A stretch of 47,966 nt of DNA from a virus: the IMG/VR virus record IMGVR_UViG_3300042991_000223, positions 1-47,966 of that record. The stretch is one strand, 5' to 3'. Made by a program: the position numbers and the translations under genes. Under the pieces are notes generated by a model that saw only the letters and a program-made list of their open reading frames with translations, searched no databases and was not told where the DNA came from. Each line of letters begins with the position of its first letter. The stretch's first letter is position 1. Positions 281 to 44,090 of the stretch are shown in pieces.

Positions 281-303
281 AAATTATTCCTTAATGGGTT
301 TTT

Positions 304-319
304 GGGGGGCGTACCCCCC
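304..319 (-). other. G6/C6 hairpin between two virion genes
   Basis: Six G and six C flank a 4-base loop (cgta), giving a perfect GC stem in the 64-base gap between 345 and 280. On the minus strand it is followed by AAAAACCC, so it could act as a weak terminator or as a stabilising hairpin that sets the ratio of the two flanking proteins. The other haplotype keeps the stem near 42142-42157. Confidence 0.5.
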
Positions 320-344
320 ACCCTGTTTGTAAAGTTACTATATT

Positions 345-1070: not shown

Positions 1071-1088
1071 AATATTTTCTCCTTATCG

Positions 1089-2159
1089 TTAAACTGTTGA
1101 TATTCCAGTCAGCTTGCCATGTCTGCGAGTTGAACCAGAGATTAAGTTGCCGAGCATAATGAACTGGCCGATTTGTGCATACTGGTTGTATGGTTTGTCG
1201 AAGCCACTCCATTGGATTGGATAACTCTTTTGATATTCGCTGTAAACTGAATCTACCCCAGCGTTGTTGACTTTGTAAGAAGTCAGACCAACACCTTGCA
1301 GGCTGTACCAGTTGATGTACTCTTCGTTTAAGAAGAACATAGCACCGCTATCGCACTTTTCGTCAGCTACGATTGGTATGCCTCTCCAACATAGAGCTTC
1401 AAATCCGTAGTTGCCTTTTAGAGATTCTTGGTCTTTAAAGGTTACACCGGGTTTGCTATAGGTCGTGATATTAACACGGCTTAGAGCGTCATAGTTGGCT
1501 GTTATTGTTGGCTGGAATAGACTTTCCATCAAGTCAAAGACTGTCTCAGTCGTGACTATAATTGATGGTCGTTGGCGTTTGCTGGAAGCTGCCGAAGCAC
1601 CTCTCATGATTGTAGCTATGTTAGCAAAACTTACTGCACCACCGCCAGCTGCTGCGACTGTTGAGTTAAGCATTGGGTAAGTAGTACGAGAAAGACCTGC
1701 GTAGGTACTAGTGTTGCCACCAGCGTCCACAATTCCACCAAGTCCTAAGAAATCATCTCCAACACCAATTCCGTAAAGCTGGTCTCCCATACTGTCAAGC
1801 ATGGCGTTCTGGCTCTCTTCTAAGGTAATTTTGATAAGGTCTAGAACTTCACCATCAGTCTTATTAAGACTTGCTTCACCGCCAGCTACCGATACGTTTT
1901 GGTAGAACTGAGCATGTGAAAAGGTTTGGCGAACCCTTGTATCTTGCAGTGCTGTGTCAAAGTTGCCGACACCGCTAAATGTGCCACCTGTGGTTGGTTT
2001 GGCAAACTGCAATGGAATAAGTATTTGTCTACCACTCCATTTTTTAGTCTCACGCATGAACAAGCGAGACATGAAGACGTTGCTATTTAATACTCCGTCA
2101 ATAGACGCAGGTACATAGCTCTCTTCTGTGATTGATATTACTCTGTTTGATAGAGCCAT
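1089..2159 (-). CDS. Major capsid protein, copy 1
   Basis: A 356-aa protein placed between scaffold and decoration genes, the standard site of the coat gene. It begins MALSNRVISITEE and lacks membrane segments or low complexity. By hand alignment it differs from copy 2 (42924-43994) at about 27 of 356 residues, without gaps; changes cluster near residues 165-190, which may be a surface-exposed loop. An HK97-type fold is assumed from context (scaffold, portal and GpA-type terminase), not proven by motif. Ribosome site AAAGGAG is 7 bases from ATG. It has its own promoter at 2226-2254. Confidence 0.85.
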   Translation of the reverse strand: MALSNRVISITEESYVPASIDGVLNSNVFMSRLFMRETKKWSGRQILIPLQFAKPTTGGTFSGVGNFDTALQDTRVRQTFSHAQFYQNVSVAGGEASLNKTDGEVLDLIKITLEESQNAMLDSMGDQLYGIGVGDDFLGLGGIVDAGGNTSTYAGLSRTTYPMLNSTVAAAGGGAVSFANIATIMRGASAASSKRQRPSIIVTTETVFDLMESLFQPTITANYDALSRVNITTYSKPGVTFKDQESLKGNYGFEALCWRGIPIVADEKCDSGAMFFLNEEYINWYSLQGVGLTSYKVNNAGVDSVYSEYQKSYPIQWSGFDKPYNQYAQIGQFIMLGNLISGSTRRHGKLTGISTV

Positions 2160-2191
2160 CTTTCATCTCCTTTTACTTATTAAATTAAAAA

Positions 2192-2213
2192 CCCCTCGTC
2201 CAATGCCGAAGGG
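2192..2213 (-). other. 5' leader hairpin of capsid gene, copy 1
   Basis: On the minus strand CCCTTCG pairs with CGAGGG around a short loop, followed by GTTTTT. It resembles a terminator, yet it starts only a few bases after the predicted start site of the promoter at 2226-2254. It therefore lies at the very 5' end of the capsid transcript, where it could stop read-through from the scaffold gene and also protect the capsid mRNA. The counterpart at 44023-44043 keeps the pairing with different bases. Confidence 0.6.
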
Positions 2214-2225
2214 CTAATTGTTAGT

Positions 2226-2254
2226 AACATAGCACAAATTGTCTGTTTTTTCAA
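2226..2254 (-). promoter_or_regulatory. Capsid-gene promoter, copy 1
   Basis: On the minus strand TTGAAA and TATGTT are separated by 17 bases, with TGC before the -10 (extended -10). It lies just after the scaffold stop codon. The other haplotype keeps the layout (TTGCAA, 17 bases, TGC-TATGTT at 44056-44084) while the spacer has diverged, which supports function. It would give the coat protein its own high-level transcript. Confidence 0.65.
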
Positions 2255-2260
2255 GGGGTA

Positions 2261-3082
2261 CTAGAGAGAGCCAAGCACTTTAGCATGCACATCATCTAGG
2301 CTAACACCTCTTGGTGGAGCTTCAATAGTTCTACCCTGAGTTTTGGGGTCGGTGGCTACACCAGAACCGCTACCCATAACTTTAGAACCAGCTTTTTTCT
2401 TGGCCACTACCTCTTCTTGTTTCTTCTTTTCTACTTCGTCTTCTCTATGTCGGTACTCATAAATCTCATAAGCATGGGTAAAGCTATCAATTCTGCGTCC
2501 AGCTTCTAGTTCTTCTCCCATCAGTGCAAAAACCTTGTCGGCCTTGTCTTTTTCAATCTTAAGCTCAGCAATTTCCTTGTCCCAGCCATCTTGCATGGCC
2601 TTGATACTAGCTTCACGTTCAGTCTTGGCATTTAGTTCTTCAACAGATTTTAAATCATCTTGGCGATTCTTCTCTAAGACTGCCATATCAGCAACAAAAA
2701 TCCCCCATGATTTATAGGTCTCTGGTTCAAAGTCATCTGGTACTTCGTCTAGGCTCGCGAACTCATGGGTTTTGCCATCTGAGTCTTTAACGCTTATTTT
2801 CTGGGGAGCTGGGGGTGTATCATCTGCCTTAATATCTTCTTTGGGTTTAACCTCTTCCTCATCATCTGAATCTTGTTCTTCTTCGTCCTCGTCATTTGCT
2901 TTCAATTCCTCATCATCTGAATCTTGTTCTTCTTCGTCCTCGTCATTTGCTTTCAATTCCTCTTCTTCAAGCAAGCGTTGGGCTTTGGCGTGTTCAGCTT
3001 CTAAATCAGTAGGTGTTGCCACCACCTCTTCTTTTTTATCGTCCTCTTTTTTTATTTCGTCTTGGTTAGGTGTGTCCGTCAT
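2261..3082 (-). CDS. Scaffolding protein, copy 1
   Basis: A 273-aa, highly charged protein between portal and coat genes. The N-terminal third is a run of Asp/Glu with Lys; the middle (about residues 130-235) is Lys/Glu-rich and probably helical or coiled coil; the C-terminus (GVSLDDVHAKVLGSL) is the part best kept in copy 2 and may bind the coat. This is the usual build of a podovirus scaffold that guides procapsid assembly and is then lost. It contains an exact 17-residue tandem duplication absent from copy 2. Ribosome site AGGAG is about 10 bases upstream. Confidence 0.75.
   Translation of the reverse strand: MTDTPNQDEIKKEDDKKEEVVATPTDLEAEHAKAQRLLEEEELKANDEDEEEQDSDDEELKANDEDEEEQDSDDEEEVKPKEDIKADDTPPAPQKISVKDSDGKTHEFASLDEVPDDFEPETYKSWGIFVADMAVLEKNRQDDLKSVEELNAKTEREASIKAMQDGWDKEIAELKIEKDKADKVFALMGEELEAGRRIDSFTHAYEIYEYRHREDEVEKKKQEEVVAKKKAGSKVMGSGSGVATDPKTQGRTIEAPPRGVSLDDVHAKVLGSL
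2855..2962. repeat. 51-bp tandem duplication inside scaffold gene
   Basis: Two adjacent perfect 51-bp units (starting 2855 and 2906, with a few further matching bases) encode a repeated 17-residue acidic block, ELKANDEDEEEQDSDDE. The reading frame is kept. Copy 2 has no such repeat and a different acidic stretch, so this looks like a recent slippage duplication in a length-tolerant region. Confidence 0.9.
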
Positions 3083-3120
3083 TGGGCTTATTCTCCTAAT
3101 TACTTTATTACTTTAATAGT

Positions 3121-5202
3121 TTACATCATTTTAGGTTTTGGCTTGCCTGATTCTTTACTTGCTTGTGGTTTAGTTTGGTCGGCATTGTAGTTTACTTCGC
3201 CAGTCTTAGTAGGAGCTACTGGAGTGGCTTGGTTGTCTTGGGGTGGCATAGCCTGATTAGCTACCTGTTGCTGTTCAGCTTCTTTCTGAGCAACTGCGTC
3301 TAATTCTTCCTGAGTCGGCATTTGAGTCATCAGAGCTTCAAGTTGGACTTGAGCTTGCTGTTGAGCCATACGCAAGTACTCAATGTAGTACTGCTTAGAT
3401 TTCTCAGATTGTTTAGCAAAGTCTCCTGTGGCCATATAATTGTTCATGAACTTGAAGTACGTGCCATCATATTCGTCACGTGGTAGTGGGACTTCTTCGG
3501 CATTAAGTATCTGTATATCCTTAAAGGCCGCTCGGCTAAACTCTTCTTCTTTAACGTTCTGCATGAACTGGTCGGGACTGGCGGTATAAAGCATAAAGCG
3601 TTCTAACATCTTCTTAGGAGATGGCATATTACCACCATTAGCGACTTCATAAACGGTTAATGGGTCAATCATGTTCTTAGATACTAGGTCTGAGACCCAC
3701 TTTTGTTGTGAACCTTTGGAGATAGGTTGGGTTGAACCAGCTTGGACTGAGACATCAATACCATCTTCAATCAGGTCAGAGTTTAAGATTATAAAGTCAA
3801 ACTGGCCGTCTTCGCCAACCGCTTTAAAGTAGTGGTCTTCGGTGTAATAGACCTTAAACATCTGAAGTAAATAGCGGTAGAACTTGGTGGCCATCTTTTC
3901 AACAGCACGTCCAACCTCGTCCATGCGAGTGTAATCTTGCTGTTGCTGAAGCTTATCTTGGCCAAGAGTGACGTTTTTGGAAGATTCGCCCCTAGATATA
4001 TCATGTGTACCAAAGATGTTATCAATGGCATAACGTAGGTCGTTTTTATCCTCTATCACGTAATTGGGTAGTTGAGGTGGAGAGATTCGTGCCATTGCAC
4101 TTCTAACGTCCCCTTTAACTCCTACTTTTTCATCTGGCGAACCAATTAGTTTGGAGATGTCTTCTTTAGTAATCATTGTGGTATTAAATACCATGCCACT
4201 ACCTGATTGGTCAGCGTTCTCCATAATCTGAAAACCACGCTTGTCTAGAATATTTTGTAAGGGTGCGGCTTGTTCCATCATAGAGGTTTGGTCAATGTAT
4301 GAAGAGCCATCATTCAACCAGTTAATACCAATAAAAGGCGGTTCGGGGTTATCAAGTAGGTTAGCGGTTCTTCCCTTTTTAGCGTCATAATTCCAGTTAG
4401 GGTTCTTTTCTTTATGGATAATGTTCGCAAAGTGTTCGTCTGCTACACATAGACCTGACATCAACTTAGAGCCTTCAAAGTACTTAAACCAAACTTCCCA
4501 TACAGTAATTTTTCTAGATAGCTGGGTCTTATAAGCTACTAGATTACCTTTAGAGTCTCTGCGATTAACGCCTAAGATTTCATAAATAACCTGTTGGGAC
4601 TCAGGGAACATAGCTAAAAGCTCTTCGCCAGTCTTGTTTTTAATCCTTTGAGCTATAAATCGGGGGATTTCGTTCATCTTAGCGTCTTTATCTACAATAA
4701 TATCGGCTGGATCTATGGATTCTGAGACTACATCTCCGAACTCGCCAATACTGGGGTCAAAGCGAAGTTTAATAAACCCAGCTCTTTTTAGAAGCAGGTT
4801 TCTAACTTGGAGTCTAAATAAGTCAGATATTTGGTACTTCTCAGCGTAGGCTTCAACAGATTTAGTAACATCTTTAGCAATCTGCATTGAGACCATCGTG
4901 TCTTGGGCTGGCATAATCTCAGGCTGGGCTATTCGTGAGTTACAAACAGAGACAATCGTTTCAACCGAGACAAAGGCTCGGTTTTCTTGATACATGTTAC
5001 CCTCTTGGTAATCATAAATATCTTTATCTGCCCAGTGATTAGGTAGCCACATATTCATATTGGAGCGTCTAATAGATTTTAGTTTTTGGGTATCTTCCCA
5101 ATAGACGGTAGATTCTTCTATTGGTTTTTTGAGTAAAGTTAAAATGTCGCTATCTGAGAGTTCTAGTGCGAAGGCTGCTCCTGATTCGTCTTCTAAATCC
5201 AT
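3121..5202 (-). CDS. Portal protein, copy 1
   Basis: A 693-aa protein between terminase and scaffold genes. Length, position and content match the long P22-like podovirus portals: an N-terminal domain with many Trp/Asn residues, a central conserved block around GTHDISRG and QQDYTRMDE, and a Gln-rich, proline-ending C-terminal tail (about residues 610-693) like the barrel or crown end. It forms the dodecameric ring through which DNA is packaged and ejected. Copy 2 (44917-46980, 687 aa) is collinear with scattered changes and a shorter tail. The start has a strong site (AAGGGGATAAC before ATG). Confidence 0.8.
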   Translation of the reverse strand: MDLEDESGAAFALELSDSDILTLLKKPIEESTVYWEDTQKLKSIRRSNMNMWLPNHWADKDIYDYQEGNMYQENRAFVSVETIVSVCNSRIAQPEIMPAQDTMVSMQIAKDVTKSVEAYAEKYQISDLFRLQVRNLLLKRAGFIKLRFDPSIGEFGDVVSESIDPADIIVDKDAKMNEIPRFIAQRIKNKTGEELLAMFPESQQVIYEILGVNRRDSKGNLVAYKTQLSRKITVWEVWFKYFEGSKLMSGLCVADEHFANIIHKEKNPNWNYDAKKGRTANLLDNPEPPFIGINWLNDGSSYIDQTSMMEQAAPLQNILDKRGFQIMENADQSGSGMVFNTTMITKEDISKLIGSPDEKVGVKGDVRSAMARISPPQLPNYVIEDKNDLRYAIDNIFGTHDISRGESSKNVTLGQDKLQQQQDYTRMDEVGRAVEKMATKFYRYLLQMFKVYYTEDHYFKAVGEDGQFDFIILNSDLIEDGIDVSVQAGSTQPISKGSQQKWVSDLVSKNMIDPLTVYEVANGGNMPSPKKMLERFMLYTASPDQFMQNVKEEEFSRAAFKDIQILNAEEVPLPRDEYDGTYFKFMNNYMATGDFAKQSEKSKQYYIEYLRMAQQQAQVQLEALMTQMPTQEELDAVAQKEAEQQQVANQAMPPQDNQATPVAPTKTGEVNYNADQTKPQASKESGKPKPKMM

Positions 5203-5251
5203 ATTGGTTATCCCCTTAAAAAGTTACGTCCGACTGGGGCTACTTAAAGTC

Positions 5252-5260
5252 ATTATACCA
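5252..5260 (-). promoter_or_regulatory. Extended -10 promoter before portal gene, copy 1
   Basis: TGG-TATAAT on the minus strand, about 50 bases before the portal start. The same TGGTATAAT is kept in copy 2 (47029-47037) although flanking bases differ. No good -35 is visible. The leader that follows can fold (GACT...AGTC here; GGGG...CCCC in copy 2), matching the promoter-plus-hairpin layout seen elsewhere in the late region. Confidence 0.55.
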
Positions 5261-5298
5261 CGCCCGAACTATATCTGTACCCCAAGAAAAGTTTGCGA

Positions 5299-5574
5299 TT
5301 AGATTACTACGTTTACAACAGTAGCATTAACTACCATACGATAATTGGCCTTGCATAGTTTACAACGTATATTGATAGCTATGCCAAAATCTTCTACATC
5401 TAGCGGTATATCAATAATTTTATCTATTCTACCTTTGAAATCGCATATAGTCCGCTTGCAAAACATACAACTAAGCTTATCTACCTGACCTTTATGGTTA
5501 TTTACTAAATAGACTGTGATGGGTGGGTCTTCGCTTCTATCACGCTTTTGGGTTATTGGGTAATCGCCGTACAT
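5299..5574 (-). CDS. Small zinc-ribbon protein, copy 1
   Basis: A 91-aa protein with two CxxC pairs (CMFC near residue 36, CKLC near residue 72), the mark of a four-Cys zinc ribbon. It sits between the terminase and portal genes in both copies, so it is part of the head module; a role in packaging or in late regulation is possible. The protein is almost unchanged between copies except for its last ten residues, where copy 2 switches to another sequence next to an AP2-domain remnant. Confidence 0.7.
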   Translation of the reverse strand: MYGDYPITQKRDRSEDPPITVYLVNNHKGQVDKLSCMFCKRTICDFKGRIDKIIDIPLDVEDFGIAINIRCKLCKANYRMVVNATVVNVVI

Positions 5575-5705
5575 TATTTAGCCCCCCTTGACAGGTTTTT
5601 ATGTTCTAATATATGAAAAGCCGCTATTTTCGGCACTTGTTTAAGCCCTCTACCCCTGTATTTGACAAGAAAACTTATTATACCATATCCACCTCTGTTA
5701 CTCAT
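5574..5705 (-). CDS. 43-aa basic peptide after terminase, copy 1
   Basis: A short frame begins at ATG 5705-5703 behind a consensus ribosome site (AGGAGG, 7 bases) and ends with TAATG overlapping the start of the zinc-ribbon gene. It encodes a basic peptide (MSNRGGYGIISF...). Copy 2 has a 47-aa counterpart at 47458-47601 that stays open despite compensating one-base shifts. This and the tight coupling argue for real translation. Function unknown. Confidence 0.6.
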   Translation of the reverse strand: MSNRGGYGIISFLVKYRGRGLKQVPKIAAFHILEHKNLSRGAK

Positions 5706-5706
5706 T

Positions 5707-7371
5707 TTATAACCTCCTTTTTCTAGTTGCCCTTATACTTTTTTCTATCAACTGTTCCATGTTGCCAAGTACCGCTCTTACTGACACCTTATCATTATGC
5801 ACCCCATAAGACCGCCTACCCCTGAAATTAGACACGGGTTTTGACGCCACCACACTCCCCCCCTCACCGCTCTTAATTTGGAACGACAAACCAACAGTGT
5901 AATAAGCCAAAGCATGCAACCAGTGGTCAGGACGGTTCGTCTTAGTCTGCCACTTCGCTTTCAATATCCCTCTCGTATCAGGCTCTACTATCCTATAAGC
6001 CTGTTCACAGTGGTAAATCAACTCCTCTAAATCCCTGGGTGTCTGAAAAAACTTAATTTTTTTGGTAGAAATATTAGACGCAACCAAATCCAAAAGTTTA
6101 GTCCTATCAGATTGAAGTACCCCGAACTGCTGGCCCTCCTTCCGCTTTGACACTTCCATAGAAGCCGAATTATCCGCCGAATAATAATGCACAAAAACCC
6201 TCCCCAGATACTTCCTCGCCAACTGCTCTGGCACAGTAAAATCCGGCAAAGCGTCTATCACACAAGTAGCATCGTACAGCTTAATCAGCGTCTCTATATC
6301 CGACCACTCCGAAGACGCCCCATAGGCAAAAATCCCTTGAGGCGTTCCCATAACCCAATGCTTTATCTTACCGCTGTCACAGCCTATCACAACGTCTCTC
6401 TTCTCAACAGACTGCGGTATATTAGCTTCTAATATAGAAGTTCTATTTATCATAAACTCAGAAGCTTGATAGGGAAGTCCTAGAACGAAGTTATGGAAGA
6501 CATCGGTGGACATAGTTTTTTCTTGCTCTATTATTTTTTTTGCTGTAACCCAGGGAATCATCATCTGTGATAACCAGTACCCTCTGCGTGTTCTTCCTTT
6601 ATATTTGGCCACCCACTCCCCCCCCTGCCTGTCTTCATCTGTTAATACCCCACCACAAGAACCACATCTATATACTTGCTTATCCTTATCTACATAGTGT
6701 GCCTTTGTGTGCCTATCCTGCTCATACATCATATACATGTTGTGCTTACACCTGTGACATCTTATGAACCAGTGCTGTTGGTCACTGTCTTGGTATAGCT
6801 CATCTACTCCGAAGCCTGGCAAGCTTGGGTTGCTGAATCGCCAGAACCAGCCCCAGTCTGACGCTTGTAGACGGCTCTGGTACACTGTTAGCACTTGTTG
6901 GTCACTCCTATCGTACTCATCGGCTACAACGAGGTCTGCGGTGGTTGATATGGCCTCTCCTTCATGAAATGAACCTCTAAAGTATATGAATCTATCGCCT
7001 ACCTGTTTTAAGCTGGTGCTGTTGGTATTCTGTACCATTGCTTTAATAACAGGGTTACGCTCTATCATAGGGTTTACCTTAGGTGTTACGAACTCATGGA
7101 CAACGTTTCGGGTAGGTAAGACGTATATAACATTAAGTTTGAGGTAGTTAGCAGCGTGTATACTCTTTAAAATGGCTGCAACGCTCCAGCCAACTTGTGC
7201 TGACTTCATGATTACTTGGTCAGGTGAACAGTCAGAGTACGGTTTAAGCATGAATCTGTGCTTATCAAATTCAAACGGCTTCTGATTCTCATTAATAAAC
7301 TTATTATCTAGTACCCATAAAGCAGGATTGAGTATATGTAACTTAGCTCTTAATTCTTCTCTATCGTTCAC
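5707..7371 (-). CDS. terL: Terminase large subunit (GpA-like)
   Basis: A 554-aa DNA-packaging motor. The ATPase part shows a deviant Walker A (KSAQVGWS, residues 56-63) and Walker B (VVADEYD, acidic pair D151-E152). A Cys4 zinc site follows (CHRC and CGSC), as in GpA-family terminases. The nuclease part has GCDSG, an acidic VIDALPD and DHWLHALAYY near the C-terminus. It cuts concatemers and drives DNA into the procapsid at the portal. The start is GTG at 7371 with no clear ribosome site, right after a terminator. The C-terminal 122 residues of a second copy lie at 47598-47966. Confidence 0.9.
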   Translation of the reverse strand: MNDREELRAKLHILNPALWVLDNKFINENQKPFEFDKHRFMLKPYSDCSPDQVIMKSAQVGWSVAAILKSIHAANYLKLNVIYVLPTRNVVHEFVTPKVNPMIERNPVIKAMVQNTNSTSLKQVGDRFIYFRGSFHEGEAISTTADLVVADEYDRSDQQVLTVYQSRLQASDWGWFWRFSNPSLPGFGVDELYQDSDQQHWFIRCHRCKHNMYMMYEQDRHTKAHYVDKDKQVYRCGSCGGVLTDEDRQGGEWVAKYKGRTRRGYWLSQMMIPWVTAKKIIEQEKTMSTDVFHNFVLGLPYQASEFMINRTSILEANIPQSVEKRDVVIGCDSGKIKHWVMGTPQGIFAYGASSEWSDIETLIKLYDATCVIDALPDFTVPEQLARKYLGRVFVHYYSADNSASMEVSKRKEGQQFGVLQSDRTKLLDLVASNISTKKIKFFQTPRDLEELIYHCEQAYRIVEPDTRGILKAKWQTKTNRPDHWLHALAYYTVGLSFQIKSGEGGSVVASKPVSNFRGRRSYGVHNDKVSVRAVLGNMEQLIEKSIRATRKRRL

Positions 7372-8262: not shown

Positions 8263-8769
8263 TTATTCTTTAGCTGGTCTTTTTGTTTGTGCCATTAGCA
8301 TATCTAAGGTGTTATCTACTAACTGCCTAGATTCTGGCGTGTTTGGATCTAAGTTGTTTTGTTGGATAAATGTATTATAAGTATTCCCGGCATTTGCTTT
8401 GTCGGTTTCGGCTTCTGTATAGCCTTTTAGTTTTAAGGCGGTATCTAAGTACTTATGTCTTACAGCATAGTCTGGGTGTTCAACATCAGAGTCCTTGCCA
8501 TATATTTTAGTAGCGTCTAGCCCTTCCATTAAAACCTTGGTCAGTTTCTTGTCAGTACCGCCAGCTTTTTCTATTGCTTTTATAAAGCCCTGGCTTTTAG
8601 TCACGTTAGAAGGTGCTTTTTTGGCTACTTGTTCAGTGTAACCAGCTTCTATAAGAATAGCCCCGATCGTTTTAGGCTTCTTGGCTTTTAAATTGCCTAT
8701 GACTAAAGTAGCAGCCCGAATCTGTCGGGGCGTTGGTGGTGGTGTTCGCTTCTTCCTTGGCTTAGGCAT
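8263..8769 (-). CDS. terS: Terminase small subunit-like protein
   Basis: A 168-aa protein starting MPKPRKKRTPPPTPRQ. Residues about 14-60 fit the helix-turn-helix of small terminases (ATLVIGN...IGAILIEAGY...), with a basic N-terminus and a variable C-terminal end. It recognises phage DNA and loads the large subunit. I chose ATG 8769 rather than the upstream 8796 because AAGGAG sits 7 bases before it and the frame then overlaps the HNH stop only slightly. It is separated from terL by five small genes or signals, as in some podoviruses. Confidence 0.7.
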   Translation of the reverse strand: MPKPRKKRTPPPTPRQIRAATLVIGNLKAKKPKTIGAILIEAGYTEQVAKKAPSNVTKSQGFIKAIEKAGGTDKKLTKVLMEGLDATKIYGKDSDVEHPDYAVRHKYLDTALKLKGYTEAETDKANAGNTYNTFIQQNNLDPNTPESRQLVDNTLDMLMAQTKRPAKE

Positions 8770-9130
8770 TGTGCAACTCCTTATGGTGTAGCTCACATAA
8801 CCATATTACATCTAAAGGCTTCGTATAGTCTTTGTGGTGTGCAATTACTTTTATGGCATCACATACTTGACAAGGCTGTTTTGTAAGTTCGCCTTTCAGT
8901 ATTGCATATCTCACTTTTCTATTAGCTTTTACACGTTCTGGGTACTTTTCTATATATCTTTGTCTTCGTGCATATTCTCGTTCTGGGTGTAGTTTATACA
9001 TTTTGCTGTCATAGTCTCGGTGGTATGCTCGGCTTTGTTCAGCGTGTGCCTTACGCCACAATCTATAATATTCAGCCGACCCATATTCTACATCTGTCCA
9101 ATCGAATGTTCGTTGTCTTGCCATAGCCAT
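8762..9130 (-). CDS. HNH endonuclease next to terS
   Basis: A 122-aa protein with an HNH core near the C-terminus: CQVC, then AHHKDY, then WLCELHHKELH, which provides the metal-binding and catalytic His residues plus a structural zinc pair. The N-terminal 80 residues are basic and helical. HNH proteins beside terminase genes often nick DNA during packaging; a free-standing homing role is the alternative. An extended -10 (TGG-TATAAA, 9133-9141) lies so close to the ATG that the mRNA may be leaderless. Confidence 0.8.
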   Translation of the reverse strand: MAMARQRTFDWTDVEYGSAEYYRLWRKAHAEQSRAYHRDYDSKMYKLHPEREYARRQRYIEKYPERVKANRKVRYAILKGELTKQPCQVCDAIKVIAHHKDYTKPLDVIWLCELHHKELHNA

Positions 9131-9183
9131 AGTTTATACCATTATTGTGCGTAAATCAAATGTCGCAAAACGCTGCATACACA

Positions 9184-9432
9184 CTATTTTGCAGCTTTTA
9201 CCACTGTTTCTTCTTCTGCTGTTTGTTCTGGCTTCTCACTAATAGTTATCTTTTTAAAGTCGCTTGATAGTTCAAATTGTGTGTGGTCTGTAACCTTCAC
9301 AGCTAAACGATCCATAGCAATGGTTGATAATAAGCCGCTAAAAATAGCTTGCTGGTGATTCTGCACAAAACTAAGTAGGTTTGTTTCGTGTTCGCTTAAT
9401 GAAAATGTTTTGGCTTCGTTATCGTTTGACAT
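9184..9432 (-). CDS. Hypothetical 82-aa protein
   Basis: An 82-aa acidic protein, MSNDNEAKTF..., with a helical N-terminal half and a Glu/Lys tail. Its start overlaps the stop of the upstream zinc-ribbon gene (TAATG), placing it at the end of the groES-groEL operon. No family recognised. Confidence 0.55.
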   Translation of the reverse strand: MSNDNEAKTFSLSEHETNLLSFVQNHQQAIFSGLLSTIAMDRLAVKVTDHTQFELSSDFKKITISEKPEQTAEEETVVKAAK

Positions 9433-9710
9433 TATGAGTACTCCTTTAATTCTTCCTTAGTATACATGTCTTTTGCTTTGTCTGGGTATGCTCTGATAAA
9501 CTCGGTGCTTGGCTTACCATCTACCCAAGGTTGTAACATATCTTTGGCGTGGTCTTCTCGGTCTCGCTCTCTATAATACTCTGCACTTTGGCCGGTTGCA
9601 TATCTATTTTCTTTATCTCGGCAAGGTCGGCAAGCTTGGCCGTATTTTCCACCAAGTATGACCCCTGTTGTATCGGTGGTTCGTTTGCACCAGTCACAAA
9701 CTTGTTTCAT
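9432..9710 (-). CDS. Small zinc-ribbon protein
   Basis: A 92-aa protein starting MKQVCDWCKRTT, with CDWC (residues 5-8) and CRPC (about residues 27-30) forming a four-Cys zinc site. The remainder is charged and helical. It overlaps both neighbours by 1-4 bases, in the operon downstream of groEL. Possible DNA- or RNA-binding accessory; the function is unknown. Confidence 0.6.
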   Translation of the reverse strand: MKQVCDWCKRTTDTTGVILGGKYGQACRPCRDKENRYATGQSAEYYRERDREDHAKDMLQPWVDGKPSTEFIRAYPDKAKDMYTKEELKEYS

Positions 9711-9988
9711 ATCGCCTTCAACCTCTCGTCTCGCTCTTCCATTGCCTTTAGTTTAGCTTGTTCGGGTGTTGGTCTTCTAACTCCGCCAGTGCTTGAGCCG
9801 TTAAACTTGCTTAAATCTATAGGCCTGTTGATTGTGTAGCTTTGTGGTCTTACTACTCCAGCTTCGCTAAACGCTTTGGCTTCGCTGTGCTGGTCTTTAA
9901 TTGCATGGATAGTAATATATATATCTTTTGCCCAAAAGCCAGCCAGAAGCCCCAAAACAAGGCAAAAAAGCCCTATTAAAACTATCAT
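9707..9988 (-). CDS. Small membrane-anchored protein
   Basis: A 93-aa protein with one N-terminal hydrophobic segment (about residues 2-24) followed by a charged, probably cytoplasmic tail that ends in a helical KLKAMEERDERL stretch. ATGA overlap with groEL upstream. No family recognised; it could help anchor or modulate a host envelope process. Confidence 0.55.
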   Translation of the reverse strand: MIVLIGLFCLVLGLLAGFWAKDIYITIHAIKDQHSEAKAFSEAGVVRPQSYTINRPIDLSKFNGSSTGGVRRPTPEQAKLKAMEERDERLKAI

Positions 9989-11607
9989 TGCATACCTGCC
10001 TTGGTTAGCTGTACTTGTTCTAACTGATAATCTCTGTCTATGATTACGCTACCTTGTAACGTGATAGCTATTCCAGCTACTGAACAGGCATTTTCTACAA
10101 TAGACTTCAATACCTTAACTGGGTCTGTTATGCCTATCTTCATTAAATCAATAGGTTCTTTTGTCATGTTCTTAGCGTCAAAGCCAAACCCTACTGGAGC
10201 GTCTACCAGCTGATTGTATCTGTAGCCCCCATCTTCGCCAGCGTTGGCCATTAACTGTTTAAATGGTTCTCTTAATGCTTTATACACTACGCTATATCCT
10301 TGTGCTTCTGAATCGTTGTCGGCTTCTACAGTTACTTCTGGCAAGGTGGCAAGTGTGACAGCTCCACCAGCTACAATCCCTTCTTCTTTGGCGGCTCTGG
10401 TGGCATGTAATGCGTCCTCTACTCTAAACTTCATCTCTTTTACTTCGGCTTCGGTAGCTCCACCCACTCGGATAATGCCTATCTTACCTTGTAGTTTAGA
10501 TAGTCGCTTCTCCATGCGTTCTTTTTGGAAAGCTGAATATTTATCAGTTAATAGCTGTTTCTTAATAGTATCTATACGAAGATTGATGTCTTCTTGGATT
10601 CCGCCACCTTCTAATATTGTGGTTTCGTTCTTGGCTACAATTATTTTTCTAGCTGTCCCGGCATAATCTACAGTCACTTTGTCGGCTGGCATACTTGATG
10701 GTATTACTTTTCCACCTGTTATGGCTGCAACATCTTCCAAAAATGGCAACATCTGGTCTCCATAGACAGGCGGTGCGACTACACAAACTTTTATTTTACC
10801 TTGAGGGTGTACTTGGGTTAATGCACATGTTTCCAGTGCTTGACCGCTGATATTACCTACAAATAAGACTGTATGATGGTCGGTGTCTTTATATATCATC
10901 TCTAGTAAGGGTATGATGTCCTTATTGCTGGAGATTCGTTTTTCTAAGGCTAAGATTGATACGTTTTCTTGTATGGCTTCTTGGCTAACAACATCTGTTA
11001 CAAAATGCTCCAAGCTCCAGCCCTTTTCAAAATACAAACCCTCTACAACATCTTGGATAACTCCAAGTCCTTCGTATTCTTCTATAGTTATTCCCACTCC
11101 ACCTACTTTTAAGATAGTGTCGGCTACTAGTTTTCCAATTTCGGGGTCGCTGGCTGATATACTGGCAACGTTTACCAGCTCTTCATCTTTAACAGGTATG
11201 GCAATATTATCTAACTGACTTTTAATCTCTAATGAAGCTTTTTCTATTCCCCTTCTTATACTCATAGGATCAAACCCAGCAGCGATTAACTGATGAGCCT
11301 TCTCCATGATTCTATAACCAAGTAAAACTGAACAAGTAGTACCATCTCCAGCTATGTCGTTTGTCTTCTTACTAGCTTGGATAAGTAAATCTGCTCCGAT
11401 GTCTTCTTCTTTATCTTCTAAGATAATGTCTCTGGCGATTGATACGCCATCATGTGAGATAATATAACTACCGTAACTCTTTTCTAGTGCTACGTTACCA
11501 GATGTCGCTCCATAAGCCACTTTTACAGCGTCATGTACAACTTTAGCCCCTTTGAGTACCTTCTCCCTGACAGATTCGGTATTTACTATTCTAACGTCAC
11601 CCCTCAA
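9985..11607 (-). CDS. groEL: Phage-encoded chaperonin GroEL
   Basis: A full-length (540-aa) group I chaperonin that folds proteins in an ATP-driven double ring. The catalytic GDGTT is present (D88), as are KTNDIAGDG and RVEDALHAT of the equatorial domain and GIVAGG near the end. The usual GPKGRNV nucleotide loop is altered to GATSGNV, losing the Lys, and the Gly-Met tail is absent. The start is TTG at 11607 (GAGGG seven bases upstream), overlapping the HNH stop. With groES it forms a complete phage chaperonin, probably for folding capsid or the very large virion proteins. Confidence 0.95.
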   Translation of the reverse strand: MRGDVRIVNTESVREKVLKGAKVVHDAVKVAYGATSGNVALEKSYGSYIISHDGVSIARDIILEDKEEDIGADLLIQASKKTNDIAGDGTTCSVLLGYRIMEKAHQLIAAGFDPMSIRRGIEKASLEIKSQLDNIAIPVKDEELVNVASISASDPEIGKLVADTILKVGGVGITIEEYEGLGVIQDVVEGLYFEKGWSLEHFVTDVVSQEAIQENVSILALEKRISSNKDIIPLLEMIYKDTDHHTVLFVGNISGQALETCALTQVHPQGKIKVCVVAPPVYGDQMLPFLEDVAAITGGKVIPSSMPADKVTVDYAGTARKIIVAKNETTILEGGGIQEDINLRIDTIKKQLLTDKYSAFQKERMEKRLSKLQGKIGIIRVGGATEAEVKEMKFRVEDALHATRAAKEEGIVAGGAVTLATLPEVTVEADNDSEAQGYSVVYKALREPFKQLMANAGEDGGYRYNQLVDAPVGFGFDAKNMTKEPIDLMKIGITDPVKVLKSIVENACSVAGIAITLQGSVIIDRDYQLEQVQLTKAGMQ

Positions 11608-12089
11608 ATTGCTACCCTCACTTTCTTCTTAAACCTTGTTTTATAACCATTATCTATATGATATGTCTTGACGTGACTTGAGTGGTCTTTAAATAACTCT
11701 AAATTATCAATCCGATTATCATTTTTTATGTAGTTGATATGGTGTATCTCTTCTTTTTTGTTAAGGCTTCTTCCAAGTTTTTGCTCCATTATGAGCCTGT
11801 GTTCAGCAATATAGTTATGTCCTACCCATATATAAACATATCCCCTAGATGTTTTTTTACCACCTTTCCATTTGGGGTTAGAAGACTTAAACCATGCTGG
11901 GTTTGGTACGCCTTTGTTATATGGTACTTTTCCCACCATGCTTTTATGGTGGTGTTCTTTGCAACAATATTTTCCAGCACCTATTGATATTCTGTATGGT
12001 GTTGAATATATATCAGCCCCACAGTATAAACAACTAGTATGTACTCTAGCTACTGCCTGTTCTCCCTTGGTGCGTTTACCGCCTTTCAT
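11604..12089 (-). CDS. HNH homing-type endonuclease between groES and groEL
   Basis: A 161-aa protein: an N-terminal zinc ribbon (CLYC near residues 20-23, then CCKEHHH), a linker with repeated Asn/Lys/Gly, and an HNH_3-type core (EHRLIMEQ, IHHINYIKNDNRIDNLEL). Such free-standing nucleases cut intron- or insertion-less alleles and spread by repair. It sits exactly between groES and groEL with 1-base and 4-base overlaps and no spacer, so it was absorbed into the operon without breaking coupling. Its own ribosome site (GGGAG) lies inside the end of groES. Confidence 0.85.
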   Translation of the reverse strand: MKGGKRTKGEQAVARVHTSCLYCGADIYSTPYRISIGAGKYCCKEHHHKSMVGKVPYNKGVPNPAWFKSSNPKWKGGKKTSRGYVYIWVGHNYIAEHRLIMEQKLGRSLNKKEEIHHINYIKNDNRIDNLELFKDHSSHVKTYHIDNGYKTRFKKKVRVAI

Positions 12090-12370
12090 TATTCCAAACT
12101 CCCTACAGCCATCACTCTACTTGCCATTATCAAAGCCAAGCCGTTATTCGCTAGTTCTGGCATAGTATCTGCTTCGCTATGTTTTTGCACCCATATCTCT
12201 TCTCCAACTTGTATATTTGGCTGTACAAATACACCATGTTCATATCTACCTTCTCCGACGGCTAAAACTTTATAGTGTTGCCAGTGGTCGGTGATGTCTG
12301 AGTTAGTAACCACCCCTGAATCTGGTTTTATTTCCTCACATAATAAATAGTCATACTTTGGTTTTATCAT
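12089..12370 (-). CDS. groES: Phage co-chaperonin GroES
   Basis: A 93-aa protein of GroES length. Recognisable parts: MIKPKYDYLL at the start, an SGVVT mobile-loop segment (GGIVL in E. coli), YKVLAVGEG, and VGEEIWVQKHSEA. It would cap the phage GroEL. Ribosome site GGAAGGGGTTAT before ATG. It is the first gene after the attenuator-like leader at 12390-12495. Confidence 0.85.
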   Translation of the reverse strand: MIKPKYDYLLCEEIKPDSGVVTNSDITDHWQHYKVLAVGEGRYEHGVFVQPNIQVGEEIWVQKHSEADTMPELANNGLALIMASRVMAVGSLE

Positions 12371-12389
12371 ATAACCCCTTCCATAATAA

Positions 12390-12453
12390 TAAAAGACGGC
12401 TCAATCGCTAGATTAAAGCCGTCTATTGTTATCATTGAACTTCTAGCGATTGA
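12390..12453 (-). promoter_or_regulatory. Attenuator-like leader of groES operon
   Basis: Hairpin: AGACGGCT (12424-12417) pairs perfectly with AGCCGTCT (12401-12394), followed by TTTT on the minus strand. Eleven of the 15 loop bases plus one stem base match, as a perfect 12-base complement, an upstream leader segment (12453-12442, TCAATCGCTAGA). The leader can thus form either a terminator hairpin or an upstream helix (or a pseudoknot). This is the build of a transcription attenuator controlling groES-HNH-groEL. What signal would switch it is unknown. Confidence 0.65.
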
Positions 12454-12466
12454 TTCCATAACCACT

Positions 12467-12495
12467 AGTGTAACACCACTCTAACTACATCTCAA
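12467..12495 (-). promoter_or_regulatory. Promoter of groES operon
   Basis: TTGAGA and TACACT on the minus strand, spacer 17 bases. The predicted start (about 12460) falls just before the 12-base segment that can pair with the downstream hairpin loop, so the leader is complete in the transcript. Starts just inside the gap after the lysozyme-like gene stop at 12499. Confidence 0.6.
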
Positions 12496-12498
12496 CCC

Positions 12499-13062
12499 TC
12501 ACCACCATCTGTTCGCTAACCAAAAAGCCTTAGCATTTTCCCAAGTTTTATATCTGTTAAGCATATAGTTGGTAAAAAATGCGTCCTGACAAGCATAGTC
12601 AGTCTCCCAGTTCGGGCAAGCATTGACTAATTTGCTTCCGGGGCAAGCCTGACCAAGCCCTAGACAACCACCACTATTTCTGGCCGTTAGTCGGCCACCT
12701 GATTCGTGACTATAAATAAATGCTTTAGCGTCTCCACCTTCGGCATACGCTGTTGCGTTTATCGGTATAGTGTATTTACTTTTCTGCTGTTGTTTGGCCA
12801 GCAGTTGCGACTGCAAACTCTTCTTTTCTTCTTCTAGTACCTTTAACTGTTCTTCTAGTTTGGCTTTATCTGCCCCGGTCTTATCTAATTGACTGTTTAA
12901 CTCCTTGTACTTAGTATCTAAAATCTTTAACTTCGCTGAATTGTCCTGAATCTCTATCTTCTTGAATTGTATTGAATCGTTTAGCTTATCTATATGCCTT
13001 ACGACCACCATGCCAGACCCTAATATAAGAGCTATTATGGCTACTGTTATAATACGTTTCAT
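12499..13062 (-). CDS. Secreted lysozyme/transglycosylase-like protein (Apf-type C-terminus)
   Basis: A 187-aa protein: N-terminal signal anchor (about residues 4-22), a coiled coil (about 30-92), then a compact C-terminal domain with HESGG (E120), CLGLGQAC and a terminal YMLNRYKTW...FWLANRWW. This domain is familiar from Apf/transglycosylase-like cell-wall proteins, frequent in Saccharibacteria. It could cleave or bind host peptidoglycan at entry or lysis. A ribosome site (GGAG) is 24 bases from ATG with a small palindrome (13068-13080) between. It is distant from the amidase cassette, so it may serve infection or host modification. Confidence 0.7.
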   Translation of the reverse strand: MKRIITVAIIALILGSGMVVVRHIDKLNDSIQFKKIEIQDNSAKLKILDTKYKELNSQLDKTGADKAKLEEQLKVLEEEKKSLQSQLLAKQQQKSKYTIPINATAYAEGGDAKAFIYSHESGGRLTARNSGGCLGLGQACPGSKLVNACPNWETDYACQDAFFTNYMLNRYKTWENAKAFWLANRWW

Positions 13063-13104
13063 GTTTACAGCTTAAAGCTGATAGGTCTCCTTTTAACGCT
13101 TATA

Positions 13105-13320
13105 TTATACCTTAGTTCTAAATATAAAAGCTCTAGCAAATAGAATTGCAGCGTGGATTCCCAAGACTGTACCTACTCCCCAGAGTACTTTGTTATCCTG
13201 TGTAGCGAATACATAAGTAGCGACTACTTCTGCAAATGCTAATACTAAAGTTAATATTCCCACTAGCCAAGACCAGTCTAATGGTTGTTTAGGTTGTTTT
13301 ACTTTGACTTGTTTTTTCAT
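13105..13320 (-). CDS. Two-span small membrane protein
   Basis: A 71-aa protein with a Lys-rich N-terminus (MKKQVKVKQPK) and two hydrophobic segments (about residues 17-41 and 48-66). It is the first gene after a consensus promoter at 13349-13377 and uses the AGAAGGGGTCAC leader. Next in line is the lysozyme-like gene, so a holin-like or envelope-associated role is possible. No family recognised. Confidence 0.6.
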   Translation of the reverse strand: MKKQVKVKQPKQPLDWSWLVGILTLVLAFAEVVATYVFATQDNKVLWGVGTVLGIHAAILFARAFIFRTKV

Positions 13321-13348
13321 GTGACCCCTTCTATTAGATTACTGACAC

Positions 13349-13377
13349 ATTATAACAAATAGCTTATGCTTTGTCAA
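13349..13377 (-). promoter_or_regulatory. Consensus sigma70-type promoter
   Basis: TTGACA and TATAAT on the minus strand with 17 bases between: a perfect match to consensus. Its -35 overlaps the 3' end of the 33-aa gene at 13364-13465. It drives 13105-13320 and probably the lysozyme-like gene. Confidence 0.85.
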
Positions 13378-13465
13378 TGGCTATGTGGCAAACAACGCAA
13401 TAGCCTTTTATCCAACAGTGCTTACCATGATTAACTATTGCAAAACCACAGGGTATATCGTTCAT
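13364..13465 (-). CDS. 33-aa Cys/His peptide, probable zinc finger
   Basis: A frame that starts by ATGA overlap with the upstream gene and encodes MNDIPCGFAI... with HC (16-17) and CVVCH (23-27), enough ligands for one zinc. It ends the 13.4-19.5 kb operon. Function unknown; small size makes the call moderate. Confidence 0.5.
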   Translation of the reverse strand: MNDIPCGFAIVNHGKHCWIKGYCVVCHIAIDKA

Positions 13466-13848
13466 TTATCTTGCTCCTTAAAAATGGCTAAAATCTGTCC
13501 TAAGGTAATGTGTTTCATTTCTATATCGCCAGCTACTATATGGTTGGCTAATACTATTATCAGTTTGTCTATCACTCTTTGTCGTTCTTGGGCTAGTAGA
13601 GAATGGATAGCTTGTCTGGCTGTGCCTTTAGCTTTTGCAAAGCGTGGATATCTAATGTTTTTTATCCAAGTGGGGCTATCGGCTCTGCTACTGCTATCTC
13701 GGTCTGTACACCAACAAAAGGTTTCGGTATCATCATCAGTTTGAGCACTACATCTTGCACAGCAAAATGGTTGCTGTTTCTGTCCAAAAACTATATATTG
13801 ATTTAATATCTCATCTATCTGCTCATCTATCTGGCTATTGTCTTTCAT
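13462..13848 (-). CDS. Hypothetical protein with Cys-rich segment
   Basis: A 128-aa protein beginning MKDNSQIDEQ, the same first seven residues and DNA as the methyltransferase that follows upstream (22-base identity, 13828-13849 and 14553-14574). It has CCARC and CWC (about residues 29-47) that may bind zinc, and a helical C-terminal half. ATGA overlap with its neighbours. No family recognised. Confidence 0.55.
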   Translation of the reverse strand: MKDNSQIDEQIDEILNQYIVFGQKQQPFCCARCSAQTDDDTETFCWCTDRDSSSRADSPTWIKNIRYPRFAKAKGTARQAIHSLLAQERQRVIDKLIIVLANHIVAGDIEMKHITLGQILAIFKEQDK

Positions 13849-14573
13849 AAAAGTACCCTCTCTTTAATAATTTGACGATATTTCTCTAACTTTTCCGCCC
13901 CAAGATATTGTCTATCAAGATTTTTGGCGGCTAACAAGGTTGTACCAGAACCAGCAAAGGGGTCTACTACTAAATCACCCTCGTCTGAATAGGTTTTAAC
14001 AAGCCACTCAAACATTATTAGTGGTTTTTGGGTCGGGTGTAATCCCCTATCTCTAGTCCATTTATTAACTGTTGTGGGGTGTCTATCTCCGTTATTATCA
14101 GTGATTATATTCCTCAAACCACCTTTCCAGTTTTCGCTGACCTTGCCAGACATTTGCCGATATGCCTTGCCATCTGTTTTTTGGGGGTTATATTTCATCG
14201 GCTGGCGTGTACCGTTGGTCACCCTACCCTTACCAAATACTAAAACTAATTCATGCACCCTAAACGGCTGTAGGTTTACATTTGGTGCGTTTGTGCCATT
14301 ATCCTTAACCCATACTAAATCATACTTATAGAGGTGTTCTGCCATAGGTATTAGTTTGCTCGCTAGTCTTGTTGTGGCGGTCATGACTAGTGACCCCTCT
14401 GGTTTCAAGACTCGCTCACACTCCCAAAAGAAAGTTTGAAAGTCTACATTTTTATCCCATTTATTGCCAGTTTCAGCGTAAGGTGGGTCGGTAAGTATAA
14501 GTTGGACTGAACCGTCATCTAAACCTCGCAAAAGCTCAAAACAATCATCCCTTATCTGGCTATTGTCTTTCAT
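13845..14573 (-). CDS. DNA methyltransferase (N4/N6, beta-class order)
   Basis: A 242-aa site-specific methylase. Catalytic DPPY is at residues 29-32 and the S-adenosylmethionine motif DPFAGSGT follows at about 204-211, the order of beta-class enzymes. The HPTQKP segment just before it is also typical. No partner restriction enzyme is nearby, so it most likely protects phage DNA from host restriction or changes phage gene expression. ATGA overlaps on both sides. Confidence 0.9.
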   Translation of the reverse strand: MKDNSQIRDDCFELLRGLDDGSVQLILTDPPYAETGNKWDKNVDFQTFFWECERVLKPEGSLVMTATTRLASKLIPMAEHLYKYDLVWVKDNGTNAPNVNLQPFRVHELVLVFGKGRVTNGTRQPMKYNPQKTDGKAYRQMSGKVSENWKGGLRNIITDNNGDRHPTTVNKWTRDRGLHPTQKPLIMFEWLVKTYSDEGDLVVDPFAGSGTTLLAAKNLDRQYLGAEKLEKYRQIIKERVLL

Positions 14574-14866
14574 AGTTGTTTCCTGTCTAAAACCATACTC
14601 ACAAATATTCTATGGCCGACTTGTCTTTCTTTTTCTACAAAACCCAGTTCTTTTAGTAGGTCGTGTCCTGTCGCCCAGCCGTCATACCCACCAGCGTGTT
14701 CACTCCCACAGCACCAACACGCTTCTATATACTTTTCCAAGTCTGCTTTAGATAGTTCGCTCAATATTTTATCTGGCAACGTGTATTTCATAGTATCAAC
14801 TCTATTGCGACGATACTGGGGTACTTCTATGCCCATTTTCTCTGCTATTTCATAAATTCGTTTCAT
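14570..14866 (-). CDS. Hypothetical 98-aa protein
   Basis: A 98-aa protein (MKRIYEIAEKMG...) with a CWCCG segment in the middle and conserved-looking GYDGWATGHDLL. It lies between two methyltransferase genes and overlaps the next by ATGA. Just before its start a truncated start module (ATGAAAGACAAT, then nine codons and a stop) remains, see findings. No family recognised. Confidence 0.55.
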   Translation of the reverse strand: MKRIYEIAEKMGIEVPQYRRNRVDTMKYTLPDKILSELSKADLEKYIEACWCCGSEHAGGYDGWATGHDLLKELGFVEKERQVGHRIFVSMVLDRKQL

Positions 14867-14888
14867 ATCTTTACTCCCCTATTGTCTT

Positions 14889-15308
14889 TCATAATGACTC
14901 CTTTAATGTTGGAATTGCCTTAAATATTACTATTGCACTTGGGAATGGTGCATTATTCTCTTGGTCGTCAAACTTTAATCTGCCCTTAATAAATCTTATA
15001 TCGGTAGCTTTCATAATGTAGTTGTGCCACCACCTAGTATCAGTTCGGCTAGGTATTAACATCACAACAGTTTTGCCCTCTTGCCACTCGTTGTACGCCT
15101 TAGCAACCCATTTGGGTATCTCGTTGCCGTAAGGTGGATTAACAAAGTTGCACCTCCCCCAAGAGGTTTCTAGGCCGTTAAAAGTAGGGTTGGGTGGGCA
15201 AGGATCAAAGTCAAACCCAAACTCTGCATCTAAAACCTGATAAACGGCTTTGGGGGTTTTCCAGTCTAATCGTTGTGAGCTAAAATGTACCACCCCAGTG
15301 TCTTTCAT
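14889..15308 (-). CDS. Phage Dam-type N6-adenine methyltransferase
   Basis: A 139-aa compact methylase of the phage DNA N-6-adenine-methyltransferase type. Seen: W-x-TPK near residue 16, DFDPCP (33-38) and NPPYG (57-61), then a conserved LIPSRTDTRWWH block and a KGRLKF segment. It methylates adenine in duplex DNA, probably to evade restriction. The gene start shares 22 bases with another junction at 14883-14904. Confidence 0.85.
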   Translation of the reverse strand: MKDTGVVHFSSQRLDWKTPKAVYQVLDAEFGFDFDPCPPNPTFNGLETSWGRCNFVNPPYGNEIPKWVAKAYNEWQEGKTVVMLIPSRTDTRWWHNYIMKATDIRFIKGRLKFDDQENNAPFPSAIVIFKAIPTLKESL

Positions 15309-15508
15309 AATGACTCCTTTGGCACATATACAACCACATAATACTTAGTCGCTGTGCTATACGATACGTCAGTCTGTATTTTTACCCTGTAACCAGCGTT
15401 GGCAAAAGCTATAACCATATGCTCTCGGTCTTGCTCATCATTTATCAGATACTTATGTATATTATCTTTAGGCTCCATAGGTTTAGTGTCTTTAGTTGGG
15501 TTGGTCAT
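15305..15508 (-). CDS. Hypothetical 67-aa protein
   Basis: A small soluble protein with a likely beta-alpha-beta core (MVIAFANAGYRVKIQTD...YYVVVYV). It ends KESL with the stop overlapping the next ATG, exactly like the Dam-type gene downstream. No family recognised. Confidence 0.5.
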   Translation of the reverse strand: MTNPTKDTKPMEPKDNIHKYLINDEQDREHMVIAFANAGYRVKIQTDVSYSTATKYYVVVYVPKESL

Positions 15509-15723
15509 AATTGTCTCATAATTGGTTTGGAATTTGAATTAGCTAAATCATAGGCAGTTGGTGTTTGAGTTTCTCTAAATTCTGGTTCTCGGTTTTCTAT
15601 AATAGCCAAAGCCAGCTCAAGACCATTAAATAACCCAACCATATAATTATCATAATTCCAGTTACCCTCATCGCCCTGAATAGCGTGGACTTCCCTTAGT
15701 CGCTGTATTTTACTTTTACTCAT
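15505..15723 (-). CDS. Hypothetical 72-aa protein
   Basis: A 72-aa helical protein. The central segment (DNYMVGLFNGLELALAIIE) resembles small phage proteins of unknown function that carry a YMxGLxNGLEL-like helix. Overlaps its neighbour by 4 bases. Ribosome site AAGGAG lies in the preceding 17-aa frame. Confidence 0.5.
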   Translation of the reverse strand: MSKSKIQRLREVHAIQGDEGNWNYDNYMVGLFNGLELALAIIENREPEFRETQTPTAYDLANSNSKPIMRQL

Positions 15724-15725
15724 AA

Positions 15726-15779
15726 CTAAAGCTCCTTAATCTTTTCTCTTGGTTCTTTTATTTCGTCTAGCTTAGTCAT
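15726..15779 (-). CDS. 17-aa coupling peptide (tentative)
   Basis: A minute frame (MTKLDEIKEPREKIKEL) starts inside the last codons of the 15772-15966 gene and carries the next gene's ribosome site. It fits the tight coupling of this operon but is too short to be sure. Confidence 0.3.
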   Translation of the reverse strand: MTKLDEIKEPREKIKEL

Positions 15780-15966
15780 CTTCTACCTCCACCACCTCTT
15801 TAGTTGCTTGTTGTCCGCACTTGTGCCACCACCAGCCAAAGCCTTTGTCTTCGGTTTCTGGTTCAATAACTAGGTTGTCTTTAACCTCTGGTTCATTTTG
15901 GTAAGCACAGGTCTTAGAACCTATCGGGCAACCACACGCCCAGTGTCGTTCTATAAACTCAGTCAT
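15772..15966 (-). CDS. Hypothetical 64-aa Cys/Trp-rich protein
   Basis: A 64-aa acidic protein with CGC, C and a later WWWHKCG motif: four Cys and two His in total, so zinc binding is possible. It lies in the early operon with small overlaps. Unknown function. Confidence 0.5.
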   Translation of the reverse strand: MTEFIERHWACGCPIGSKTCAYQNEPEVKDNLVIEPETEDKGFGWWWHKCGQQATKEVVEVEDD

Positions 15967-16024
15967 TTTCTCTACTCCTTATATTAAAATCTTCTTGCTC
16001 TTCTAGGTGGTCGATGGTGTCCAT
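15959..16024 (-). CDS. 21-aa acidic peptide (tentative)
   Basis: ATG at 16024 follows GGAGTAAGG and the frame (MDTIDHLEEQ...) ends overlapping the next start by 8 bases. Short, but it fills a gap in the operon in the manner of its neighbours. Confidence 0.35.
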   Translation of the reverse strand: MDTIDHLEEQEDFNIRSREND

Positions 16025-42119: not shown

Positions 42120-42141
42120 AAAATTTCCTTAATGGGCTTTA

Positions 42142-42157
42142 GGGGGACGTACCCCCC
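42142..42157 (-). other. G5/C5 hairpin, copy 2
   Basis: GGGGG...CCCCC around acgta, the counterpart of the hairpin at 304-319; the stem survives although bases around it differ. Confidence 0.5.
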
Positions 42158-44084: not shown

Positions 44085-44090
44085 GGGGTA

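Follow-up and report, generated by a model that had tools for sequence, protein, structure and literature searches.

In classical attenuators of the trp and his type and of Gram-positive leaders, mutually exclusive antiterminator and terminator helices lie between the promoter and the first gene. RNA thermometers occur in the leaders of groES and of heat-shock genes, and in metastable 5' hairpins, such as those of the hok mRNA and of the MS2 maturation gene leader, timing governs translation or antisense binding. In mycobacteria, leaderless polycysteine short ORFs reportedly act as attenuators (Canestrari et al. 2020, as cited in PMC9031893 and PMC13236596): a leaderless short ORF at the operon 5' end controls the downstream genes, and PMC9031893 describes this control as acting on the translation of those genes. 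In the immunity of satellite phage P4, as summarised in PMC4825925, a stable CI RNA is complementary to a leader segment just upstream and leads to premature termination. In the open-licence literature we found no description of leader-RNA control or attenuation of a phage-encoded chaperonin operon.

The leader analyzed here precedes such an operon in the window, by which we mean the whole stretch of DNA under analysis, 47,966 nucleotides long (IMG/VR record IMGVR_UViG_3300042991_000223, positions 1 to 47,966). On its minus strand, 12495-12370 contains a promoter, followed by a 12-nt segment termed a and by a hairpin, b:b', that resembles a terminator and has in its loop a stretch, a', able to pair with a; the element is compact (about 75 nt). 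The features are as follows.

12467-12495, minus strand: sigma-70-type promoter TTGAGA-17-TACACT with TG before the -10 (-35 TTGAGA at 12495-12490, -10 TACACT at 12472-12467, 17 bp spacer; 9/12 match)
12457-12459, minus strand: AUG at the predicted transcript 5' end, present in all five leaders compared below
12367-12459, minus strand: candidate leaderless ORF of 30 codons, MESIARSSMITIDGFNLAIEPSFIIMEGVI, whose stop overlaps the groES start as ATGA
12442-12453, minus strand: segment a, TCAATCGCTAGA, one strand of the alternative helix a:a'
12425-12435, minus strand: c, 5' arm of an A/U-rich lower stem, pairing with the tail
12417-12424, minus strand: b, AGACGGCT, 5' arm of the upper terminator-like stem
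12416-12402, minus strand: loop of hairpin b:b'
12401-12412, minus strand: a', TCTAGCGATTGA, hairpin loop segment, complement of a
12394-12401, minus strand: b', AGCCGTCT, 3' arm of the upper stem
12381-12393, minus strand: U-rich tail, TTTATTATTATGG, in which termination is predicted; also c', the 3' strand of the lower stem
12375-12382, minus strand: Shine-Dalgarno-like sequence of groES, GGAAGGGG, assigned by inspection
12089-12370, minus strand: groES (Cpn10), a weak match that is nevertheless above the Pfam cutoff
11604-12089, minus strand: inserted HNH endonuclease gene that separates groES from groEL
9985-11607, minus strand: groEL (Cpn60)

The initial annotation had placed a 17-bp-spaced promoter ahead of groES-groEL, followed by a 12-base segment complementary to a hairpin loop, and these parts are found where it put them on the minus strand. 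The a/a' inverted repeat is perfect over 12 nt; A12401, the 12th base of a', is also part of the b stem, so that 11 of the a:a' pairs lie purely in the loop. One small correction is that the loop is largely able to pair with itself (AAUC/GAUU) and that the stem extends downward through L1 and the tail; this lower stem and the AUG at +1 had both been overlooked. Taken by itself, the promoter match is ordinary (27 sites in 9000-16000, where shuffles give 17.7 +/- 4.4), and its weight comes from its being kept in relatives rather than from the score. None of 200 shuffles folds as well as the leader RNA (z -3.8), and a strict scan for the a-b-a'-b' order returned one match in the window and one in 20 Markov-simulated windows.

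Nearly all long ORFs of the window and all neighbour genes are on the minus strand. A co-directional transglycosylase-like gene (12499-13062) ends at 12499, upstream of the leader, while small genes and then terminase, portal and capsid genes lie downstream of groEL. A perfect consensus promoter (TTGACA-17-TATAAT, TG before the -10) is found at 13377-13349 of the minus strand, upstream of gene 13105-13320. Both contig ends (positions 1-6063 and 41840-47954) hold one head-gene region, which runs from the end of the terminase gene through portal, scaffold and capsid to the following gene; the two copies are 76-81% identical in nucleotides, with 92% identity for the capsid protein and 78% for the portal. 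Relatives of similar length have a single copy; a contig that walked past a full circular map into a second strain is more likely than a real duplication, and the window contig may be a composite.

Related phages were collected by alignment of the terminase, which gave eleven related viral contigs, and of GroEL, which gave more. L012 and L026 stop short of the leader region; the contigs that hold groES together with the sequence upstream of it were examined. The same promoter-AUG-a-b-a'-b' layout precedes the groES operon in four of them (L017, 5632-5700; L015, 4797-4860; L021, 481-545; L024, 3102-3165), with the -10 hexamer at the same distance from the AUG and from a in these four. GroEL of the carrier phages is 60-69% identical to that of the window. 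In the window groES starts 23 nt past b', which leaves no space for a further promoter, and in the window, L015, L021 and L024 the gap between element and groES is about 23-32 nt with no apparent promoter in it, so that groES transcripts from the leader promoter must pass the hairpin in these four phages; in L017 the element is separated from groES by an HNH gene. Chance-level matches aside, there is one element per genome, at groES only, and searches elsewhere in these genomes and in cellular groEL loci returned only scattered matches of that level.

Three related lineages are without the element: L016 has a short leader straight after a TATAAT, and L022/L027 have HNH genes upstream of groES. 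The third, L025, has a strong terminator (stem of 10 bp, T6) in its groES leader at 2530-2650, followed by a new TATAAT promoter directly before groES. It was not counted as a sixth case because a:a' would be limited to 6-7 pairs and both promoter and AUG are missing from their places, and it is possibly a lineage that bypassed the switch. The ten phage proteins group together as a single clade (100/100) in the GroEL tree, and carriers sit on several of its branches, which makes loss in the other lineages the simpler reading. This tree groups the phage GroEL only among themselves; the nearest cellular GroEL retrieved was from Saccharibacteria, an outcome biased by the search patterns, and in 392 Saccharibacteria-class genomes neither the terminase nor the capsid protein has a near relative. 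Single-protein scans with GroES and GroEL found no close relatives, and neither did the exact hairpin DNA; tblastn against a phage collection gave no match for GroES and matches only at 41% identity or less for GroEL, and a further search via GroES added no new contigs. HNH or HNH-like genes in and around groES-groEL (window 11604-12089 and 8762-9130, L017 5632-6021, L022 2841-3718) vary in position, being found at the groES/groEL junction, at the leader/groES junction, upstream of groES and near the small terminase gene; the two of L022 were called by eye and have no Pfam match.

The letters of a and of the loop fall into three unrelated families, AATCGCTAG in the window and L017, AACGGAAG in L015 and L021, and CACTGTGG in L024. 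Each a matches its own loop over 12, 9, 12, 10 and 8 nt in the five leaders, as against only 3-5 nt with loops of the other families in a swap matrix. The letters of b differ in all five, with no more than 4 nt of the b arms in common between any two phages, and each leader has a perfect b:b' stem of 7-11 bp. Covariation in related phages had been suggested in the initial annotation, and both pairings have indeed been kept through wholesale compensatory change; a search for relatives that lost one pairing without compensation found none among the five carriers, and three lineages without the whole element. Shuffled 5' segments reach the observed a:a' match in 0 to 84 of 200,000 trials. Furthermore, we scanned both strands of these phages, of Saccharibacteria loci and of other viral loci for hairpin loops that complement at least 8 nt of the 32 nt lying upstream. 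Among 602 comparable hairpins in 3.18 Mb, eight had such a loop and five of these eight were the groES leaders, that is, five of five leaders against 3 of 597 other hairpins. The five cases are related by descent and hence not independent, and at least three letter families have each kept the pairing. At the level of sequence, the complementarity between a and the loop is not due to chance. The scan also turned up, around 8960-9020 of a Saccharibacteria contig (L102), two adjacent terminator-like hairpins with mutually complementary loops, GTAAATCC and GGATTTAC.

The two pairings had been said either to compete or to form a pseudoknot, and competition is the better reading. In all five leaders L1 pairs with the tail, which lengthens b:b' by an A/U-rich lower stem to 17-22 bp, with full hairpin energies of -23 to -33 kcal/mol; the gain from the lower stem is clear against shuffles in L015 (0.002) and L021 (0.01) and not in the other three. 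Only 0-6 nt separate a from the start of the full hairpin, and L3 measures 0-2 nt for an a:a' helix of 8-12 bp. As judged from A-form geometry, the two structures are thus expected to compete, and a complete pseudoknot is sterically unlikely. A true H-type pseudoknot, in which a:a' and b:b' form together and are recognised by a ligand or protein, would agree with the a-b-a'-b' order and with an L1 of 13-18 nt when the lower stem is open. However, by this geometry none of the five leaders has loops that span both helices at once, the lower stem uses most of L1 in all of them and only a partial form, with the lower stem open, could possibly arise; we therefore consider this reading unlikely. As in an attenuator, the leader has two mutually exclusive folds that are kept by compensation, and a genuine role in on/off control is very probable.

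The sequence comparison provides the layout, its position, the compensatory change, the +1 AUG and the lower stem; a role of a:a' as antiterminator, termination by the hairpin, the direction of the effect and the ribosome as trigger are inferred. We judge the chances to be about even that the leader is a bistable, attenuator-like RNA switch, ordered co-transcriptionally, which controls the entry of transcripts from its own promoter into groES-groEL. As a, b and a' are synthesised before b', the a:a' helix would form first and delay the hairpin, and with a:a' in place the polymerase would clear the hairpin end and read through into groES-groEL. When a is occupied, the hairpin would form once made, and RNA synthesis would stop or stall in the U-rich tail. 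Folding of growing prefixes, which is a set of equilibrium calculations and not kinetics, showed a:a' holding 0.8-1.0 of a until b' was nearly complete. In the window a:a' still held 0.81 of a with 6 nt past b' exposed and yielded at about +8 to +10, and in the other four leaders the hairpin won at equilibrium as soon as b' was out, so that antitermination there needs kinetic trapping. With a blocked, b:b' appeared several nucleotides earlier in all five. A default pathway with a:a' first and the hairpin later is thus plausible everywhere in this model, and strongest in the window.

The main difficulty for the attenuator reading is the weakness of the U-tracts in L015 and L021. The nT values are good in the window (3.6) and L017 (4.6), medium in L024 (2.5) and weak in L015 (2.4) and L021 (1.4), so that some leaders may have an output other than termination; in L015 and L021 this could be pausing or an effect on stability.

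What occupies a would decide how such a switch is read. The AUG lies 6 nt past the -10 in the four relatives and 7 nt past it in the window, which makes its A the expected +1 (seventh base after the -10) or +2 (eighth base), respectively. Given an AUG at the predicted start of each of the five, a leaderless transcript is expected, with a lying under the initiating ribosome. Counted from the A of the AUG, a begins at +5 to +7 and ends at +14 to +18, within codons 2-6 in all five leaders, and an initiating ribosome covers about that stretch (+5 to +18). This makes a ribosome initiating on the leaderless AUG the most natural candidate occupant of a, other candidates being a protein of phage or host origin and an RNA that binds a. 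Frequent initiation on this AUG would then lower groES-groEL expression. We advance only tentatively, as a possibility, a kinetic attenuator that responds to whether a ribosome sits on the leaderless +1 AUG, in which the ribosome would hide a, the hairpin would form and chaperonin transcription would go down.

The leader frames have 30, 129, 25, 24 and 8 codons. In L017 the 129-codon HNH frame opens at the leader AUG (HNH domain match at residues 78-120), which is consistent with the AUG being a working start. A conserved leader peptide was rejected because MESIARSSM.., MEIASTLIS.., MKTEVIEYC.., MYNGRIVLN.. and MKSLWNLK are unrelated, and across the five peptides there are no conserved regulatory codons or arrest sequence. 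This absence of peptide conservation, from 8 codons to a 129-codon HNH fusion, the three lineages without the element and the possibly composite nature of the window contig count against a switch. These phages have no clear excess of +1 AUG after promoter-like sites that would indicate general leaderless usage. In L022, at about 2814-2851, TTGACA-17-TAGAAT is followed after 7 nt by the in-frame ATG of an HNH-like ORF, which is apparently leaderless.

A steric exclusion between a:a' and the hairpin in cis would leave a and a' of separate molecules free to pair. The leader could be under antisense-type autoregulation as in satellite phage P4, with freed hairpins pairing through a' in trans with a on new transcripts and favouring an early stop. 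The stable hairpin, which exposes a loop of 10-16 nt that can largely pair with the segment just upstream, resembles CI RNA with seqA as summarised in PMC4825925. P4 has two flanking targets, seqA and seqC, whereas the hairpin here has one close complementary partner, upstream of it, and no downstream seqC equivalent; there is no sign of processing, the +1 AUG is left unexplained, and the operon encodes a chaperonin rather than the replication genes of P4. Such autoregulation seems improbable to us. The weak U-tracts of two relatives would also suit an mRNA stabiliser or 5'-end folding element, either fold of which would guard the groES-groEL mRNA from decay with no switch involved, and a 17-22 bp hairpin near the 5' end, directly before the Shine-Dalgarno sequence, is in line with this. 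We give it little credence, because it does not need a loop complementary to a, yet this is the most constrained feature of the leader.

A DNA-level operator, with a/a' as an inverted-repeat repressor site beside the promoter, would account for the perfect 12-bp inverted repeat that closely follows the -10 and for the letters common to the window and L017, but is hard to credit in view of three unrelated letter families, an a-a' spacing of 23 to 32 nt, and b arms and a tail that also pair, which a DNA site has no need of. A plain terminator of the upstream gene with incidental loop complementarity, as its U-rich tail and its place about 75 nt past the stop of 12499-13062 might suggest, carries next to no weight and is already disfavoured by the sequence data, namely the scan result of five leaders against three other hairpins, the compensatory change, and the promoter and AUG conserved upstream of the hairpin.

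With the bistable, attenuator-like switch as the preferred reading, the leader shares with classical attenuators two exclusive helices, a U-rich tail and a 5'-proximal short ORF, which overlaps the first helix strand in all five leaders as in ribosome-mediated attenuation. It differs from them in that a overlaps the first codons with no run of regulatory codons, the AUG is predicted to be leaderless, the leader peptide is not conserved and the U-tract is not uniform. Like RNA thermometers, it is a structured RNA leader of a chaperonin operon; unlike those of the ROSE or FourU type, in which the Shine-Dalgarno is paired when closed, it has two competing helices and a Shine-Dalgarno sequence (12382-12375) beyond the stem that is not sequestered and is mostly unpaired in the fold. 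As in hok and MS2, a first-formed 5' helix would later be displaced by a more stable fold, with the difference that read-through is proposed here. The predicted leaderless small ORF at the operon 5' end has its counterpart in the mycobacterial system, where ribosome speed on cysteine codons is reportedly what matters, and such codons are lacking in the phage leaders. The leader does not demonstrably belong either to mycobacterial leaderless-ORF attenuation or to P4 CI RNA control. In Rfam 15 no family passed its gathering threshold in the window or in L015, the best sub-threshold match being Yfr10 (25.9 of 43 bits).

The groES leader is thus a compact element of uncultured phages, backed by compensatory change, that links a predicted 5'-terminal AUG to a bistable RNA. 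If ribosome occupancy is indeed what it reads, groES-groEL output would be tied to the state of the translation machinery without a ligand or a particular peptide sequence, and the leader would be a sequence-independent sensor of translation initiation and a new type of phage riboregulator.
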